A DNA stretch of 64,000 nt from Ruminococcus flavefaciens. GTDB taxonomy: Bacteria; Bacillota; Clostridia; Oscillospirales; Ruminococcaceae. The first letter of the stretch is position 1, and the number at the start of each line of letters is the position of its first letter. Both the position numbers and the translations under genes were made by a program. Shown piece after piece: positions 20,157 to 59,144 of the stretch. Below the pieces are notes generated by a model that had not been told where the DNA came from, searched no databases, and was given only the letters and a program-made list of their open reading frames with translations. The DNA is taken from NCBI GenBank assembly GCA_002373775.1, contig DFJW01000061.1, positions 39,769 through 103,768 of the forward strand, read 5' to 3'.

Positions 20157-20948
20157 TTATTTTCCGTAGACCATGTACAGCAGCTTGTTCTTTGCTCCGC
20201 TCGGCAGGATACGGTCAAGCATGCAGGCAGCTTTGTATCCTAAACCCATGGTGTAAAGCGGCTTGACCTTCTTTTTGCCCACAAGCTTCATGATATATCC
20301 TGCAACTTCATCGGTGCTGTAGCCGTTCTGTTCATCATGCTCCATGACTGCAACAGAACGGCTTATTCTTCCGCCGTATTCTTCGTCGCCTTCTATCGAC
20401 TTGCTGCGCGCAGAGGTAAAGCCTGTTTTTGCGTCTCCAAGCATGACTGCACACACCTGTACGCCATAAGGTCTCAACTCGTTCGCGAGACCGCAGGTAT
20501 AGGAATTTATGCCCGCCTTCGTGACAGAATACCATATCTGGAACGGTATCGGCATTACTGCTGCAACGCTGCTGATATTTATTATCAGTCCCCTCTTATG
20601 CCTGCGCATATAAGGTGCAGCTGCTTTGCATACATTTGCCGTTCCCACAAGATTAACGTCAAGCTGCCGCATTACTTCGTCGTGCTCTGTGAACTCAGCC
20701 GCTCCCGAAATACCGAATCCGGCACAGTTCACTACAAGATCAATATGCTGTTCTTTATCGTATATCTCAGACATGAGCTTTATGATACCTGCTTCGTCCG
20801 TTACGTCGGCTTTGCAGTGTATGATCCCTTCTGCACTGCTGTCACGTCTTGAAAGCTCATACACCTTCCATCCGGATTTTCTGAGTTGTTTCGTAAGAGC
20901 AAGTCCTATGCCGCTGCTTCCGCCTGTTACTACTGCTGTCCTTTTCAT
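20157..20948 (-). CDS. Short-chain dehydrogenase/reductase
   Basis: This is a 263-residue Rossmann enzyme of the classical SDR family. It has the nucleotide-binding motif TGGSSGIG (residues 8-15), NCAGFG, the catalytic Ser of INISSVAA, and YSVTKAG with the Tyr-x3-Lys pair. Charged Arg after the second strand (YELSRRD) suggests NADP(H). The substrate is not predictable. The start at MKRTAVVTGG lies eight bases after GGAG. It has its own promoter (21009-21037) and ends tail-to-tail with the phosphoesterase gene. Confidence 0.88.
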   Translation of the reverse strand: MKRTAVVTGGSSGIGLALTKQLRKSGWKVYELSRRDSSAEGIIHCKADVTDEAGIIKLMSEIYDKEQHIDLVVNCAGFGISGAAEFTEHDEVMRQLDVNLVGTANVCKAAAPYMRRHKRGLIINISSVAAVMPIPFQIWYSVTKAGINSYTCGLANELRPYGVQVCAVMLGDAKTGFTSARSKSIEGDEEYGGRISRSVAVMEHDEQNGYSTDEVAGYIMKLVGKKKVKPLYTMGLGYKAACMLDRILPSGAKNKLLYMVYGK

Positions 20949-21008: not shown

Positions 21009-21037
21009 ATTATACCATAAGCACCGAACCGCTGCAA
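21009..21037 (-). promoter_or_regulatory. Promoter of the SDR gene
   Basis: TTGCAG and TATAAT are separated by exactly 17 nt on the minus strand, about 60 nt ahead of the SDR start. This shows the SDR gene need not depend on the upstream small-RNA promoter. Confidence 0.75.
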
Positions 21038-21070: not shown

Positions 21071-21181
21071 AAAAAAATCCGCCTGCGCGGTATTTCCTGC
21101 ATCTTTATTTAGAGACCGATACCGCTGAACACGCGGCACCGATCTCAATGAGAGGGCATAAATATAACAATTGTATATCCT
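21071..21181 (-). ncRNA. Candidate structured small RNA (~110 nt)
   Basis: This minus-strand unit lies in the gap between the decarboxylase operon and the SDR gene and has no convincing reading frame. It contains a continuous 14-bp helix (21112-21125 with 21133-21146; arms GAGACCGATACCGC and GCGGCACCGATCTC). The three non-Watson-Crick positions are all G-U wobbles, and the loop is 7 nt. A shorter 5' dyad around ACAATTGT precedes it, and it ends in a GC-rich hairpin (CCGC-GCAG-GCGG) followed by seven U residues. A promoter with 17-nt spacing lies directly upstream. I do not recognise it as a known RNA class. Confidence 0.6.
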
Positions 21182-21187
21182 ACAATT

Positions 21188-21249
21188 ATTTTACTATATT
21201 AAAATCATATCCACAACCCATAATCTGCATATAAGGTGGACAAAACGAA
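21188..21249 (-). promoter_or_regulatory. Small-RNA promoter with upstream element shared with the xylanase promoter
   Basis: On the minus strand TTGTGG is followed after 17 nt by TAAAAT. Positions 21189-21249 align without gaps with 45703-45763: by hand count 48 of 61 bases match, and 30 of 36 in the part upstream of the spacer. The -35 and -10 register is identical in both. This suggests a common activator site. Confidence 0.6.
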
Positions 21250-21266
21250 TATCATTTTGCATAAGT

Positions 21267-21301: not shown

Positions 21302-22522
<1,221 letters not shown>

Positions 22523-22535
22523 TCTGCTGCCCTCC

Positions 22536-22937
22536 TTATGCGATAACGACCAGCGGTGCACCTGTGTCTACAACTGCGCCCTTGCTTGTTACCACCTGTG
22601 CAACAGTGCCGTCCTTGGGGGATACAATCTCGTTTTCCATTTTCATAGCTTCGAGGATAACAAGTATCTGTCCTGCCTTTACTGTATCGCCCTGCTTTAC
22701 GTCAACACGGATGATGTTGCCGGGCATAGGAGCTTCAACAGTCTCGCCGGCTGCAAGATTTACAGGAGCAGCAGGCGCAGGTGCAGCTGCCGGTGCTGCG
22801 GCAGCCGGTGCTGCTGCGGGTGCAGCTGCGGCAGCCGGTGCAGGTGCGAGTGCCTCATACTCATCAAGCAGAACAGCCTTGCCCTGCTCGACCTCTACTT
22901 CATATGTCTTACCGTTAAGAGTAACTTTATACTTCAT
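22536..22937 (-). CDS. Biotin carboxyl carrier subunit of the decarboxylase
   Basis: The 133-residue carrier has an N-terminal beta segment (KVTLNGKTYEVEVEQG), an Ala/Pro-rich flexible linker (about 33-62) and a biotinyl domain with the canonical EAMKMENE, whose Lys is biotinylated. It shuttles CO2 from the carboxyltransferase to the membrane beta subunit. In many OAD pumps this domain is fused to OadA; here it is a separate protein, as in methylmalonyl-CoA decarboxylase. RBS AAGGAGG; the gene starts three nt after the gamma-subunit gene. Confidence 0.93.
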   Translation of the reverse strand: MKYKVTLNGKTYEVEVEQGKAVLLDEYEALAPAPAAAAAPAAAPAAAAPAAAPAPAAPVNLAAGETVEAPMPGNIIRVDVKQGDTVKAGQILVILEAMKMENEIVSPKDGTVAQVVTSKGAVVDTGAPLVVIA

Positions 22938-41707: not shown

Positions 41708-44700
41708 TCATGAAAAGCTCCATGAATCAAATGTTATATCACCGCTGAATACGAAGTAGAGATCTGTGCTTCCGCTGAGGTCTGATATTGTGGGAACTGT
41801 GATCTCTGACATGCTTCCGCCTGCAGGTATTTCAACATATGCTACAGCGTCGCTCTTTGTACGGTCTGTGCAGACCTTGATAGCGCATCCGTTAGCTGAA
41901 GAAGCCTTTACTGTGAGCTTGTTTGCACCCTTTGAGAACTTAGCGCCTGTAACCTTTGTCCATTCGCCCTTAGAAGCCTTTACTGTTGTATCCATGAGTC
42001 CGTCTATTGATACGTTCTTTGACTGATTAGACATTGTTTCAGCCTGAACTACCTGATACGGATTGAGATCTTCGATCTGTGAGCAGCCTTTCATATTTCC
42101 TGAGCAAGAGAGCTTGCCATTTGAGAATGAGCACTCGTTGATCTGAGTTGAACGGTAGTTACCGTCCTTGTTATCCCTGCTGCGGTCATTCGGGTGACTG
42201 CCATCAATAAATGTGTTACCCATACGGAGAGACTGCTGACGTGAATGATATGCTACATAATACTTGCCCTTGAAGTAGATTATAGAGTGGTGGTTGTTAC
42301 CGCCGTTGTCTATTCTCTGTGTGGCTGTATTCTTGAAAACGTTGCCTGCAAAATTGCTTGAATTCCATGAGAGCGGATCCTTTGATGTCATGTAAACGAT
42401 GTCCGCACTTCCGAAGTTTACGCCGTTGATAGTCTGGTTTCCTACATCCCAGTTGGAGCAGTATGAATAGTACCATGTATCACCGATCTTGATAACACTT
42501 GAATCCTCGAAGAGGTAAGGAATATCCATCTTTACAGGGTTGCCTGCCAGTGAGATCATGTCCTTGCCGAGCTTTACAACTCTGCCGGTGCCGGGAGTTG
42601 CAGCAGGTATGCCATTCTTTCTGCCGCCGCCGAAGAACAGATAAGCTTCATCTGTTTTCTCATCGTAGTATACGCCGGGATCGAACATCCACTCAACATC
42701 TGAGCAGTTAGGTGTGCCATGTGTAAGAAGAGCATGACCAAGAGGATCTGTCCATGGACCTGTCGGGCTGTCAGCTGTGAGTACGCCGATACCGCCGCCG
42801 CTGTTTGCAAAGTAGAGGAAGAACTTAGGCTTGCCGTTTATCATCTTCCATGCTGCATCAGGAGCCCATGCTGCACTTGCCCATGAAGCTACACCGTTCT
42901 TTGTTCTGCCGTTTCTTCCAGCTACCGGGATAGCGCCGTGGTCTGTCCAGTTTACCATATCCGCTGTTGATACACAGTTGATCGTTCCTGAATTGTATGT
43001 GTTGATCTGGAGTCTTCCGTCCTGATAGTACTCAAATGCGTCATTTGTTGTGTAGATGTAAAGTCTGCCGTCATATACCATCCAGCCGGGATCAGCACCG
43101 AAGCGCTGTGTTGTCATGGGGTTGTTCTCCCCGTCATACTTCCAGCTTGAATTAACACTTATGCCTGAAAAGAGCTGCTGCATCTTTTCGATCTCTACTG
43201 CCTGCTCAGCTACAGGGAATTCGTTTATACGGCGAAGGATGTAATCCTGAAGAAGTACAACGTCTGCTATCTCGAACTTGCCGCTCTTGTCAACGTCTGC
43301 TGCCTTCTTTGTCTGAGCATCTGATATGCCGTTGATTATGCCCTTACGAGCTGCTGCCATATCGAATGCATCGACCATGCCGTCGAAATTGATATCGCCG
43401 GGTAAAACTTTCACTACCTTAGGCTGACCAGCTCCAGCAATCACTTTGCCGGCAACAGCGCCGCATGCGTCATCAATGTAGAAATTCTCTGTTGTGCCGT
43501 CGGTCGTCTCAACATAGATGCTTACATCAGTTGCATCAGCAGGGATCTTGAAATTAGTGTTTGCAAGCTGCAGCCACTGTCCCTGAACGCCTGTGCCTGA
43601 AGCGATCTCTTCATAATGAGCCTCTCCGTCAGAACCTGTGTACTGAAGTGAGAACTTGAACTCTGTAGTCTCAGCGCCGTCAAAATATGTTACATTTACT
43701 GAGAAGCTGTACTCTTCGCCGGGCTTGAATGCTGCTGTGTTGAGTGAACGCTTTGCACCGTCATATGCAGCTGTTCTTTCCTCTACGCGCAGAGCTTCCT
43801 TGCCCTCGTATGCAACTCTTCCGCTTGTTGCAACACCAGCTCCGAATCTGCCTTCCCAGCTGTCTGTGTTGCCTTCAAAATCACTGCGGAAATAGAATCC
43901 GTTTTCATCGGGCTCTATTACCGGAGGTTTATAGTCTCCGCTTCCGGGACCTGTATAAGGCATACCAGAAGTCCACTGGCTGTCCGGAACTACAGCTGCG
44001 ATAGAATTATACGCTGTCTTTCTTTGATGATTCTCGTCAAATATCAGAGGATAGTTCTTGTTGCCGCTCTTATCTTTAGCTACCCATGAATTGGCATCAT
44101 TAGGTCCCCAGAGCTGAACGAGCGTTACGCTCGGTCCGTCCGGATGAGCAATGTTCCAGTCCATAGCTGCCTTGAATATTGCAGCATACTTCTTAGCCTG
44201 GTCTGCATCTGATATAGAACCGCCTTCGCGTGATATATCAAGCTCTGTTATCTGTACATCACAACCGTTGTTGAGGTACATCTTCATCGCATTCGTGTAT
44301 GCGTCATAACCTGAGAAACCGTTCCAGTTCGCATTGATGTGGGACTGCATTCCTACACCGTCAAGAACACCTTTCTCCTTGAGTTTCTTGGTCATGTCAG
44401 CTATGCAGTTTCTCTTGTGATCCCAGTACTCATTATAGTCATTGTAATAGAGTTTGCAGTACTTGGGGGCATACTTTCTTGCATATGTGAATGCCTGCTC
44501 AACGAAGCTGTTGTCGCCGTATACCTGTACCCACGGAGATTTGCCGTCATATATACCGGGCACTCTTGCTCCGCCGTTGTTTGCTGTACGGTTTGAATCA
44601 TCTGATACGCACTCGTTGCAGACGTCATATGCGTACAGTATAAGTGAAGGATACTGTGTAGCGTAAGCATTGAACATATTAGCTATGTAGCTTTCCATAC

Positions 44701-45613
44701 GCTGATTCATCACGCTCTTGCTTACCCAGTTTCCGCCGTTCTGGAAGTTGTCCTTGAAGAACCACTCCGGTGTCTGGCTGTGCCATACGAATGTATGACC
44801 TCTGAATCCGAGTCCGTGGGTTGCAGCAAATTCACATATAGCTGCACAACTGTTGAGTGATACTCTGATGTTTGTGTTTGAAGAACCGCTCTGAACGAGA
44901 GTAGCATCGGGCTTTGTCTCATTCTCGCACTCTACTGCATTGTAGTCAAGAAGGAACTCTGCTGTGATAGTAGAATTCTTTACTGTTCCTCCGTTGAGGA
45001 TATTACCTACACGGAAGTAAGCACCAAACTCATCCTTGAGGCCTTTTCCGGAAGGCTGAGCGGATGCGTATCCGACAGGTCTCTCTTCAGTGATGAGAAC
45101 ATCGTCGAACGAGAAGTCATTGGTGCTGTCAGTTGTTATAGTGATCTTGAACTCGTAATCTCCGTCAGGAGCTGTGTACTTAGCAGAAAGCTCTGTCCAC
45201 TCTCCGCCGCTGACATCCTGAGAAATGATCTCTTTTACTGTTTCTGCTTCAGTCTCCATGTCCTTAGTAAGAACTGTAACATGGAATGTCTCATCTGTCT
45301 CGCTGTATACCTTGAAGCTGTAGTTATACTCCTTGCCGCCGTCGAGATAGAAGCCCTTTGATGAACAAGCGCCCTCTTCGGGTGATGTACGTCCGAATAT
45401 CTTCATACCTCTTGTCTCGCCGTAACCGCCGCCGGGAACTGCTACCAGCTCAGCAATATCGCTGTCTGCATACCAGCCGTCGTAGTTCACTTCGAAACCA
45501 TTGTTTACCAATTCTGCCGCATACGTCTTAGTCAGTTTCTCCGGACCGATGCTTATCATGCTTGCAACAAATGCAGCGGTCAGAGCGCATGACACGACTC
45601 TTTGTTTCCTCAT
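41708..45613 (-). CDS. CBM22 / GH10 xylanase / CBM22 / dockerin / GH43 / CBM6-like
   Basis: The 1301-residue secreted enzyme starts at MRKQRVVSCAL after AGGAGGG. Module order: a signal peptide, CBM22 (about 35-180), then GH10 (about 190-520) with GHTFVWHSQTPEWF, acid/base in YDVCNECVSDD and nucleophile in VQITELDISREG. A second CBM22 (about 550-710) leads to a dockerin (about 725-790; GDINFDGMVDAFDMAAARKG and DVDKSGKFEIADVVLLQ). GH43 follows (about 815-1130; FGADPGWMVYDG, WAPDAAWK, FEDSSVIK), then a C-terminal CBM6-like module (VVQAETMSNQS). An endo-xylanase joined to an arabinofuranosidase/xylosidase would cut arabinoxylan cooperatively. The second CBM22-dockerin segment is nearly the same as that in the downstream gene. 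Confidence 0.92.
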   Translation of the reverse strand: MRKQRVVSCALTAAFVASMISIGPEKLTKTYAAELVNNGFEVNYDGWYADSDIAELVAVPGGGYGETRGMKIFGRTSPEEGACSSKGFYLDGGKEYNYSFKVYSETDETFHVTVLTKDMETEAETVKEIISQDVSGGEWTELSAKYTAPDGDYEFKITITTDSTNDFSFDDVLITEERPVGYASAQPSGKGLKDEFGAYFRVGNILNGGTVKNSTITAEFLLDYNAVECENETKPDATLVQSGSSNTNIRVSLNSCAAICEFAATHGLGFRGHTFVWHSQTPEWFFKDNFQNGGNWVSKSVMNQRMESYIANMFNAYATQYPSLILYAYDVCNECVSDDSNRTANNGGARVPGIYDGKSPWVQVYGDNSFVEQAFTYARKYAPKYCKLYYNDYNEYWDHKRNCIADMTKKLKEKGVLDGVGMQSHINANWNGFSGYDAYTNAMKMYLNNGCDVQITELDISREGGSISDADQAKKYAAIFKAAMDWNIAHPDGPSVTLVQLWGPNDANSWVAKDKSGNKNYPLIFDENHQRKTAYNSIAAVVPDSQWTSGMPYTGPGSGDYKPPVIEPDENGFYFRSDFEGNTDSWEGRFGAGVATSGRVAYEGKEALRVEERTAAYDGAKRSLNTAAFKPGEEYSFSVNVTYFDGAETTEFKFSLQYTGSDGEAHYEEIASGTGVQGQWLQLANTNFKIPADATDVSIYVETTDGTTENFYIDDACGAVAGKVIAGAGQPKVVKVLPGDINFDGMVDAFDMAAARKGIINGISDAQTKKAADVDKSGKFEIADVVLLQDYILRRINEFPVAEQAVEIEKMQQLFSGISVNSSWKYDGENNPMTTQRFGADPGWMVYDGRLYIYTTNDAFEYYQDGRLQINTYNSGTINCVSTADMVNWTDHGAIPVAGRNGRTKNGVASWASAAWAPDAAWKMINGKPKFFLYFANSGGGIGVLTADSPTGPWTDPLGHALLTHGTPNCSDVEWMFDPGVYYDEKTDEAYLFFGGGRKNGIPAATPGTGRVVKLGKDMISLAGNPVKMDIPYLFEDSSVIKIGDTWYYSYCSNWDVGNQTINGVNFGSADIVYMTSKDPLSWNSSNFAGNVFKNTATQRIDNGGNNHHSIIYFKGKYYVAYHSRQQSLRMGNTFIDGSHPNDRSRDNKDGNYRSTQINECSFSNGKLSCSGNMKGCSQIEDLNPYQVVQAETMSNQSKNVSIDGLMDTTVKASKGEWTKVTGAKFSKGANKLTVKASSANGCAIKVCTDRTKSDAVAYVEIPAGGSMSEITVPTISDLSGSTDLYFVFSGDITFDSWSFS

Positions 45614-45701
45614 GCTAATACCCTCCTGATTTATTAATATTATTTTATTCGGTTCAGGCGGTGAATACATATTTTCACTCTCCGCCATAATTATTACTTA
45701 T
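45614..45701 (-). other. 5' leader of the xylan operon
   Basis: This is the minus-strand leader of about 80 nt from the predicted start site to the ATG, AT-rich, with AGGAGGG near its end. An in-frame upstream ATG (45688) lies within it but has no ribosome site. No hairpin or riboswitch-like fold is evident. Confidence 0.5.
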
Positions 45702-45765
45702 ATTTTACAATATTAATAATTTATACGCAACCCATTATTTGCAGATATGGTGGATAAAATGAAAC
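45702..45765 (-). promoter_or_regulatory. Promoter and upstream element of the xylan operon
   Basis: On the minus strand TTGCGT and TAAAAT are separated by 17 nt. The stretch above the -35 (45731-45763) contains a loose dyad (CCAT...ATGG). The whole segment 45703-45763 aligns gap-free with the small-RNA promoter at 21189-21249. The AraC-type regulator encoded divergently is the obvious candidate to bind here; this is inference. Confidence 0.65.
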
Positions 45766-45986: not shown

Positions 45987-46784
45987 ATGAACATGGATGA
46001 GATAGGCTATAACCACCGGCATGAAAGAGAATTTCACGTTGAACGGCCGGAAGGCACCGGCGACTGGCTAATGCTGATAATAAAATCCCCTGTGATACTG
46101 CGTGTAGGTGAGGAGGAGATAAAATCTCCGGCAGGTACGCTCATGATCTATCAGCCAGGTGTCCCGCAGTTCTACAGACCTGACTGCGATGAATATTTCG
46201 ACGACTGGATACACTTCCTGCCGGACGATACTGATATCGCTCTTATACACGAACTCGGGCTGCCGCTTAATACTCCGGCTAAACTTACAGAATACACTGA
46301 AGTCTCTTCTATAGTCGACCGGATGTGCTATGAGCAGTACTCCGCAAACGCCTACAGGAAGGAGACTGTCCAACTGTATTTCAGACTTCTGCTGTACAAA
46401 CTCAGCGAGAAGATAAACCGTGGGAACGTTCCCGGCGGCGATCACCCGAAAGCTTATGTCGAGAAGCTGCACTGGATAAGAGAATCCATTTACCGCTGGC
46501 CAAGCAGAGAGTATACAGTTGACGATATGGCAAAGGACCTCTCGCTCAGCCGTTCCAGATTCCAGCATCTGTACAGCGAGACGTTCGACACGAGCGTTTC
46601 AAAGGACATCATAAACAGTCGCTTATCCAGAACAGCTGAGCTGCTCACTACGACTGATCTGCCGGTAAAAGACATCGCTCTTCTCGTCGGTTACGGCAAT
46701 AATTCATCTTATCTTGTCAGGCTGTTCAAGTCAATTTACGGCATTTCTCCCGGACAGTACCGCAAGACAAATACCCAAAAATGA
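45987..46784 (+). CDS. AraC-family transcriptional regulator
   Basis: The 265-residue protein has an N-terminal cupin sensor domain (about 5-150; HEREFHVERP, AGTLMIYQPGVPQFY) and a C-terminal double helix-turn-helix. The latter reads YTVDDMAKDLSLSRSRFQHLY and then LPVKDIALLVGYGNNSSYLVRLFK, ending in the conserved SPGQYR. Such proteins activate sugar-utilisation genes when bound to a mono- or oligosaccharide. It is divergent from the xylan operon, so control of that operon by xylan breakdown products is the natural inference. RBS AAGGAG; a second in-frame ATG two codons on is possible. Confidence 0.92.
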   Translation: MNMDEIGYNHRHEREFHVERPEGTGDWLMLIIKSPVILRVGEEEIKSPAGTLMIYQPGVPQFYRPDCDEYFDDWIHFLPDDTDIALIHELGLPLNTPAKLTEYTEVSSIVDRMCYEQYSANAYRKETVQLYFRLLLYKLSEKINRGNVPGGDHPKAYVEKLHWIRESIYRWPSREYTVDDMAKDLSLSRSRFQHLYSETFDTSVSKDIINSRLSRTAELLTTTDLPVKDIALLVGYGNNSSYLVRLFKSIYGISPGQYRKTNTQK

Positions 46785-58977: not shown

Positions 58978-59116
58978 TTTACTACCTCTTTTCATAAAAT
59001 TCAATGGTTTTTTATAAAAATTCATTTATTGCACATCTAATTTGTCAAATCCGGTAATAATCTGCCTGTTTTGCGCATTTTTTTAGGATGTATTGAGACA
59101 AATTTGCGAAAAGGAC

Positions 59117-59144
59117 TTGCAATTTCCCGAAAATGGTATATAAT
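59117..59144 (+). promoter_or_regulatory. Promoter of ackA
   Basis: TTGCAA and TATAAT are 16 nt apart, about 30 nt ahead of the ribosome site GAAAGGA. Confidence 0.78.

Follow-up and report, generated by a model that had tools for sequence, protein, structure and literature searches.

What is encoded by a short minus-strand unit of Ruminococcus flavefaciens with a predicted promoter and terminator of its own, and to which regulon does it belong? Such bacteria rank among the main degraders of plant cell walls. The unit was studied within the window, the whole 64,000-nt stretch of DNA that was analysed. It is bounded upstream by an oadB-type gene for the beta subunit of a Na+-transporting decarboxylase (21302..22561, minus strand, Pfam), which lies outside the unit and also served as a control, and downstream by a short-chain dehydrogenase gene (20157..20945, minus strand, Pfam). 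The preliminary description had proposed a structured RNA gene at this place, and its elements are present in the minus-strand sequence. The core promoter TTGTGG-N17-TAAAAT (21188..21216) consists of the -35 TTGTGG (21211-21216) and the -10 TAAAAT (21188-21193), separated by a 17-nt spacer. Behind it lies the predicted small RNA of ~111 nt (21071..21181), with the start deduced from the -10 and the fold computed. The RNA contains a C/U-rich segment, AUGCCCUCUCAUU (21147..21159), which is the proposed pairing region, a 14-bp helix with a 7-nt loop and three G-U pairs (21112..21146; arms 21133-21146 and 21112-21125), and a proposed intrinsic terminator (21071..21091), composed of a short GC hairpin (21080-21091) and U7 (21071-21077). 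Generic scans of the window listed neither the promoter, which is under their threshold, nor the terminator, because the -35 agrees with TTGACA at 3/6 positions and no more than 4 GC pairs follow one another without interruption in the terminator. A 120-nt stretch of the unit, including a 5' hairpin partly upstream of the likely start at ~21181, folds at -43.7 kcal/mol versus a shuffle mean of -26.2 (z -5.3), and none of 200 shuffles folded as well. For the 111-nt transcript the value is -37.6 kcal/mol and for its complement -25.3, consistent with the polarity of the G-U pairs, which keep the helix on the minus strand only. The reported absence of a plausible reading frame was confirmed for the RNA, whose AUGs lack a ribosome-binding site and start frames of 4 codons or of 18 codons that run through the terminator. 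We infer that the unit is transcribed and functions as a small RNA.

The promoter region connects the unit to other genes. The claimed gap-free match between the blocks 21189-21249 and 45703-45763, the latter upstream of a xylanase gene, was reproduced with 48/61 identical positions; the runner-up place in the window reaches 33. Of the many short matches that BLAST of the unit found in 60 relatives, the best were to the block upstream of the -10. The view that one promoter is a copy of the other had to be given up, since both blocks are instances of a genus-wide box and not a private copy. The consensus of this box in the genus is TTTTGTCCACC-N16-GGGTTG, followed by the -10. At the RNA, it is the 35-mer CGTTTTGTCCACCTTATATGCAGATTATGGGTTGT (21213..21247, minus strand), which overlaps the -35 and stands one spacer ahead of the -10 TAAAAT, as in the box regulon; the second box (45727..45761, minus strand) precedes the GH10-GH43 gene. 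In a scan with a matrix of 84 distinct sites, all from other genomes, the RNA box is the top place of the window (47.6 bits), followed by the xylanase box (41.8 bits) and the next place at 10.2 bits, whereas reversed and complemented matrices stay below 0. Two of the 91 training rows are loci of an RNA family described below (family A) with spurious ORFs; when they are dropped, the three scores become 47.6, 41.3 and 9.8 bits. The pattern TTKTCCACC-N16-RGTT occurs at 177 places, versus 20 when read backwards, in 70 of 100 genus genomes. A -10 with at least 5/6 matches lies in the expected stretch of 145 of the 155 distinct sites, compared with 77 of 673 control positions of the same fetched loci. 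Among 149 fetched-locus sites with a -10 of at least 4/6, an ORF led by a ribosome-binding site follows within 150 nt in 93 and is absent in 56; the fetched loci are no random sample, as they were chosen for the box, the regulator or the RNAs.

The genes behind the box identify the regulon. Hemicellulase-type Pfam domains (GH10, GH43, GH30-type, GH127, GH141, CBM_4_9, CBM_6, esterase) are found in 26 of the 28 proteins encoded behind distinct boxes with a called ORF (loci L093-L132). The remaining two, L107 and L121, are both short proteins in which no such domain was detected. Boxes of the own genome lead GH10-GH43 (in the window), GH43 with esterase, GH2, GH43 with CBM6 and GH127 genes, and one further weak box is present on C20. 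The gene in the window encodes a secreted GH10-CBM-dockerin-GH43-CBM6 enzyme (41708..45688, minus strand, Pfam), the start of which was set mechanically and may truly lie inside the ORF. The earlier suggestion that this gene and the RNA unit have a control element in common is borne out by the one box found at both, which marks a hemicellulase regulon throughout the genus. Membership of the window RNA in the box regulon of hemicellulase genes is well supported.

A box in front of the unit could also act on the next gene. The main rival to a separate RNA gene is that the unit represents an attenuated 5' leader of the dehydrogenase gene, in which the box recruits the gene and the hairpins control read-through. 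The dehydrogenase is on the same strand with only ~125 nt from the U-run to its start codon, the terminator of the unit is short, and some boxes in relatives are located 150-390 nt ahead of a gene. However, a possible promoter of the dehydrogenase gene itself, TTGCAG-N17-TATAAT (21009-21037, minus strand), is readable between the RNA and this gene, though the promoter scan omits it, and inspection by eye of the sequence ahead of the gene in 4 of 32 dehydrogenase relatives revealed no such RNA unit. We regard the leader as unlikely and return to a stand-alone RNA gene in what follows.

Two proteins come into question as activators of the box. The AraC-type regulator encoded at 45987..46784 (plus strand, Pfam) was the candidate of the preliminary description. 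This protein carries an AraC helix-turn-helix and its gene is divergent from the box-bearing xylanase gene, but within the fetched loci it has no homologue in any locus other than its own. The other candidate is encoded on contig 74 of the own genome, between two boxes. It is 729 aa long and joins LacI-type periplasmic-binding domains to an AraC helix-turn-helix (Pfam); we named it XylR-like from a presumed resemblance. Escherichia coli XylR, which acts in pentose use, combines a periplasmic-binding-protein-like sensor with an AraC helix-turn-helix; the genus regulator differs from it in being a 729-aa protein linked to secreted polysaccharide enzymes. Relatives of the XylR-like regulator are found in 105 of 125 genomes, frequently as several paralogues. 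The comparison used the best 30 of the matches in the 105 genomes, not a random draw: 18 of these loci have a box at most 400 bp ahead of the regulator start and 6 have one immediately after its end, 21 loci in all. By contrast, oadB control loci have a box upstream in 0/30 and behind the end in 1/30, the one being the window itself. Conservation of the locus as such was rejected, because no box stands beside oadB in the 29 relatives. The box also co-occurs with the regulator. The 51 genomes with an orthologue-like regulator contain 144 box matches versus 6 backward, the 34 genomes with only weaker regulator matches 28 versus 9, and the 15 genomes without a regulator match 5 versus 5; these groups of 100 genomes depend on an E-value cut set by us, and the statistics ignore kinship. 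Judged from sequence comparisons, the XylR-like regulator on another contig appears the likelier activator, given its linkage to and co-occurrence with the box. For the AraC protein of 45987-46784, given the lack of homologues among the other fetched loci, the role of activator is highly doubtful.

Is the window RNA the only small RNA behind the box? One box of genome G035 is followed not by a gene but by an RNA of ~140 nt that has a terminator, the first member of what we call family A. The sequence downstream of this box has BLAST homologues at E <1e-18 in 20 of 125 genomes, each preceded by the box; the same search at E 0.1 lists 54/125 genomes, in which matches beyond the 20 are short and were left uncounted. 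A core model, R2, adds members in G064, G132, G024, G126, G137, G017 and G069 (E 5e-10 to 0.002). The own-genome member (L394, contig 103, RNA near 59056-59122, minus strand) is a weak R2 match (E 0.44) and was accepted because the box (35.1 bits), the -10, the seed AAUCAUCCUCAU and the terminator are all present. In total, family A is found in 28 of 125 genomes, the own included, with the box directly in front in 28/28. Weak R2 matches in G003, G060, G062, G090, G097 and G108 have a box at 0/7 loci, the best score being -10.0 bits. The helices of family A covary: 9 of 16 pairs changed on both sides, compared with 3.6 in shuffles (0/500 as high), and 96.5% of the alignment cells pair versus at most 52.1% when slid. 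The covariation alignment (A5) includes one spurious antisense row (L182) and omits the own L394, which is below the cut-off. The family has a conserved seed, AAAUCAUCyUCA, directly before the terminator hairpin.

Family B consists of a box followed by a ~190-nt RNA directly behind the XylR-like gene. In the own genome it is located at C74:79545-79774 (L093:4546-4775, minus strand), and further loci are L043, L278, L280, L290, L291 and L302. This arrangement, next to the regulator and preceded by a box, is seen in the own genome and in G024, G001, G137, G121, G012 and G126. In G018, a glycosidase gene is followed by a related element (compare L122, where no box stands directly in front). AUCUGCAC is invariant among the RNAs and mostly located in a hairpin loop of the predicted fold; they also have in common a conserved block, GUAAGGGnCAnAUCAG, and a terminator. 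This family was followed within the fetched loci, and the 8 strong matches to its model, R3, are the sequences from which the model was built. Rfam gave no match at the gathering score for either family (5 family A loci, 7 family B loci and the own contig 74 stretch); in L278, the family B terminator is overlapped by a sub-threshold miRNA match (E 0.55). Contig 74 also holds tandem boxes ahead of the GH43-esterase gene (C74:82117-82259; L093:7118-7260, plus strand). Behind the first is a mini-RNA of ~70 nt that has a terminator of its own, with UUCCUCCC, an anti-Shine-Dalgarno sequence, in the terminator loop; the second leads the GH43-esterase gene.

The descent of the window RNA is a separate matter. 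BLAST of its body against 125 genus genomes produced no convincing homologue, only the own copy and 8 short matches, with a best E of 0.007. This best match, in G099, reads like coding sequence and was rejected as a homologue. Consequently, no covariation backs its own helix, and the conserved covarying helix looked for in relatives was not found, whereas other small RNAs behind the box do pass the covariation test. Phage records contained no match at E 1e-5. The statement that the RNA belongs to no recognised family agrees with the Rfam scan of the window, which yielded 0 matches at gathering thresholds; the best sub-threshold match on the minus strand is isrK (E 0.97). Lack of conservation among the 125 genomes, along with some box sites in relatives that lead no recognisable ORF, would fit a non-functional unit, that is, a box and promoter with a chance hairpin or the remnant of a lost enzyme gene. 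Such an origin is quite unlikely in view of the fold, with its z of -5.3 and three G-U pairs that preserve the helix on one strand, and of a box that is the best in the window. Could the window RNA instead be a diverged member of family A and not a separate RNA? Both are placed behind the same box, have a similar length and combine a C/U-rich segment beside a hairpin with a terminator. They differ in the segment itself, in the internal 14-bp helix and in the separate terminator of the window RNA. A local alignment with family A covers CUCAUUGA and a hairpin whose loop contains GUGUUC; its score of 27 is attained in 5 of 5000 shuffles, but also by 3 of 2242 window chunks, one of which may be the RNA itself. 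Model R1 gives 12.9 bits (E 0.0092 over 501 nt), whereas R2 gives 10.5 bits (E 9.7 over the window) and scores three other places higher. The family A seed, AAUCAUC, is missing, and the own genome already holds a family A member on contig 103. We did not assign the RNA to family A, as the R1 and R2 models fail to place it and the full AAAUCAUCyUCA seed is absent, and consider this descent very improbable. The family B model R3, with its AUCUGCAC and GUAAGGGACAAAUCAG blocks, has no match at 21071-21181; its sole match in the window (44224-44353, E 0.088) falls within a coding region. The window RNA is probably a separate, young small RNA of the regulon.

Possible targets were sought for the window RNA and for family A. 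The best predicted pairing of the window RNA, computed with 71 start regions only, was equalled by 29 of 60 shuffled seeds. For family A, the target pattern occurs, besides 20 sRNA genes, at 10 places in 24 genomes versus 3 for the backward control. One place recurs: in G019, G074 and G124 (G019:C2:323450; G124:C17:6938; G074:C17:738445), the leader of a secreted-protein gene has 22 nt that are 95% identical to the complement of the family A sRNA, at its seed region, and this leader is a possible target. Elsewhere, the pattern falls on start codons in G072 and in G062, a genome that lacks family A, or within coding frames. Taken by sequence, the target matches of family A are only hints.

The analysis computed the box, the gene content of the regulon, the statistical link to the regulator, the fold and the other box-led small RNAs; activation, the transcript with its ends, and pairing are inferred. 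The reading that we hold to be rather probable places the unit in the xylan/hemicellulose regulon as a stand-alone gene that is activated by the XylR-like protein and whose small RNA pairs with ribosome-binding sites. In this mechanism, the XylR-like activator, a LacI-type sugar sensor joined to an AraC helix-turn-helix, would bind the 35-bp box over the poor -35, so that the RNA would be switched on together with secreted hemicellulases; this first step is founded on the genus-wide statistics. The ~111-nt RNA would end at its own terminator, and AUGCCCUCUCAUU, ahead of the stable helix, would probably pair with ribosome-binding sites of targets, retuning their mRNAs on xylan. The window RNA is then best read as one of a set of small RNAs in the xylan regulon, and as specific to its species. 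A wider proposal seems to us evenly balanced, namely, that one XylR-like activator commands both hemicellulases and a small-RNA layer (family A, family B, the mini-RNA and the window RNA) that retunes translation on xylan, with A and B being undescribed families and the window RNA a young, species-specific element that acquired a box.

Among the matches listed in the open-licence literature, no paper dealt with small RNAs of Ruminococcus or with the present regulator or site. The main text of a 2024 review on the regulation of bacterial hemicellulases has no occurrence of Ruminococcus, sRNA or small RNA (PMC10766802). The nearest working analogue that we have seen appears to be GibS, a sugar-linked small RNA of the gut glycan degrader Bacteroides thetaiotaomicron (PMC7366714). 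GibS has an intrinsic terminator and a single-stranded seed, with which it base-pairs to the translation initiation regions of its targets; for the window RNA, a terminator and a pairing segment are proposed. GibS differs in phylum, sequence and promoter, is conserved in its genus, is induced by N-acetylglucosamine and has experimentally shown targets (PMC7366714). DonS-type RNAs of Bacteroides polysaccharide loci are likewise short and tied to polysaccharide use, but they are cis-antisense to a susC gene, whereas the window RNA is intergenic and antisense to no called gene (PMC7366714). If our reading is true, the combination of a defined operator with a candidate regulator and a number of predicted small RNAs makes RNA control of hemicellulose use testable, and the box-led small RNAs hint at an unstudied RNA layer in plant-fibre digestion.

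Some boxes deserve mention in their own right. In L101 (G072), a GH30-type gene is preceded by a box of the AATATTTATTTTATMGG type, and boxes of the same type are present without a long ORF called nearby in L011, L026, L058 and L344 (G023, G007, G065 and G006, respectively). Weak family B matches occur farther downstream in L011, L026, L058 and L101 (E 0.01-0.07). Possibly, the genes of L011, L026, L058 and L344 were lost while the leader and the 3' element were retained. In L335 (G106 C19), the stretch behind a box is non-coding, contains C-rich segments as well as a terminator, and is a further candidate small RNA.
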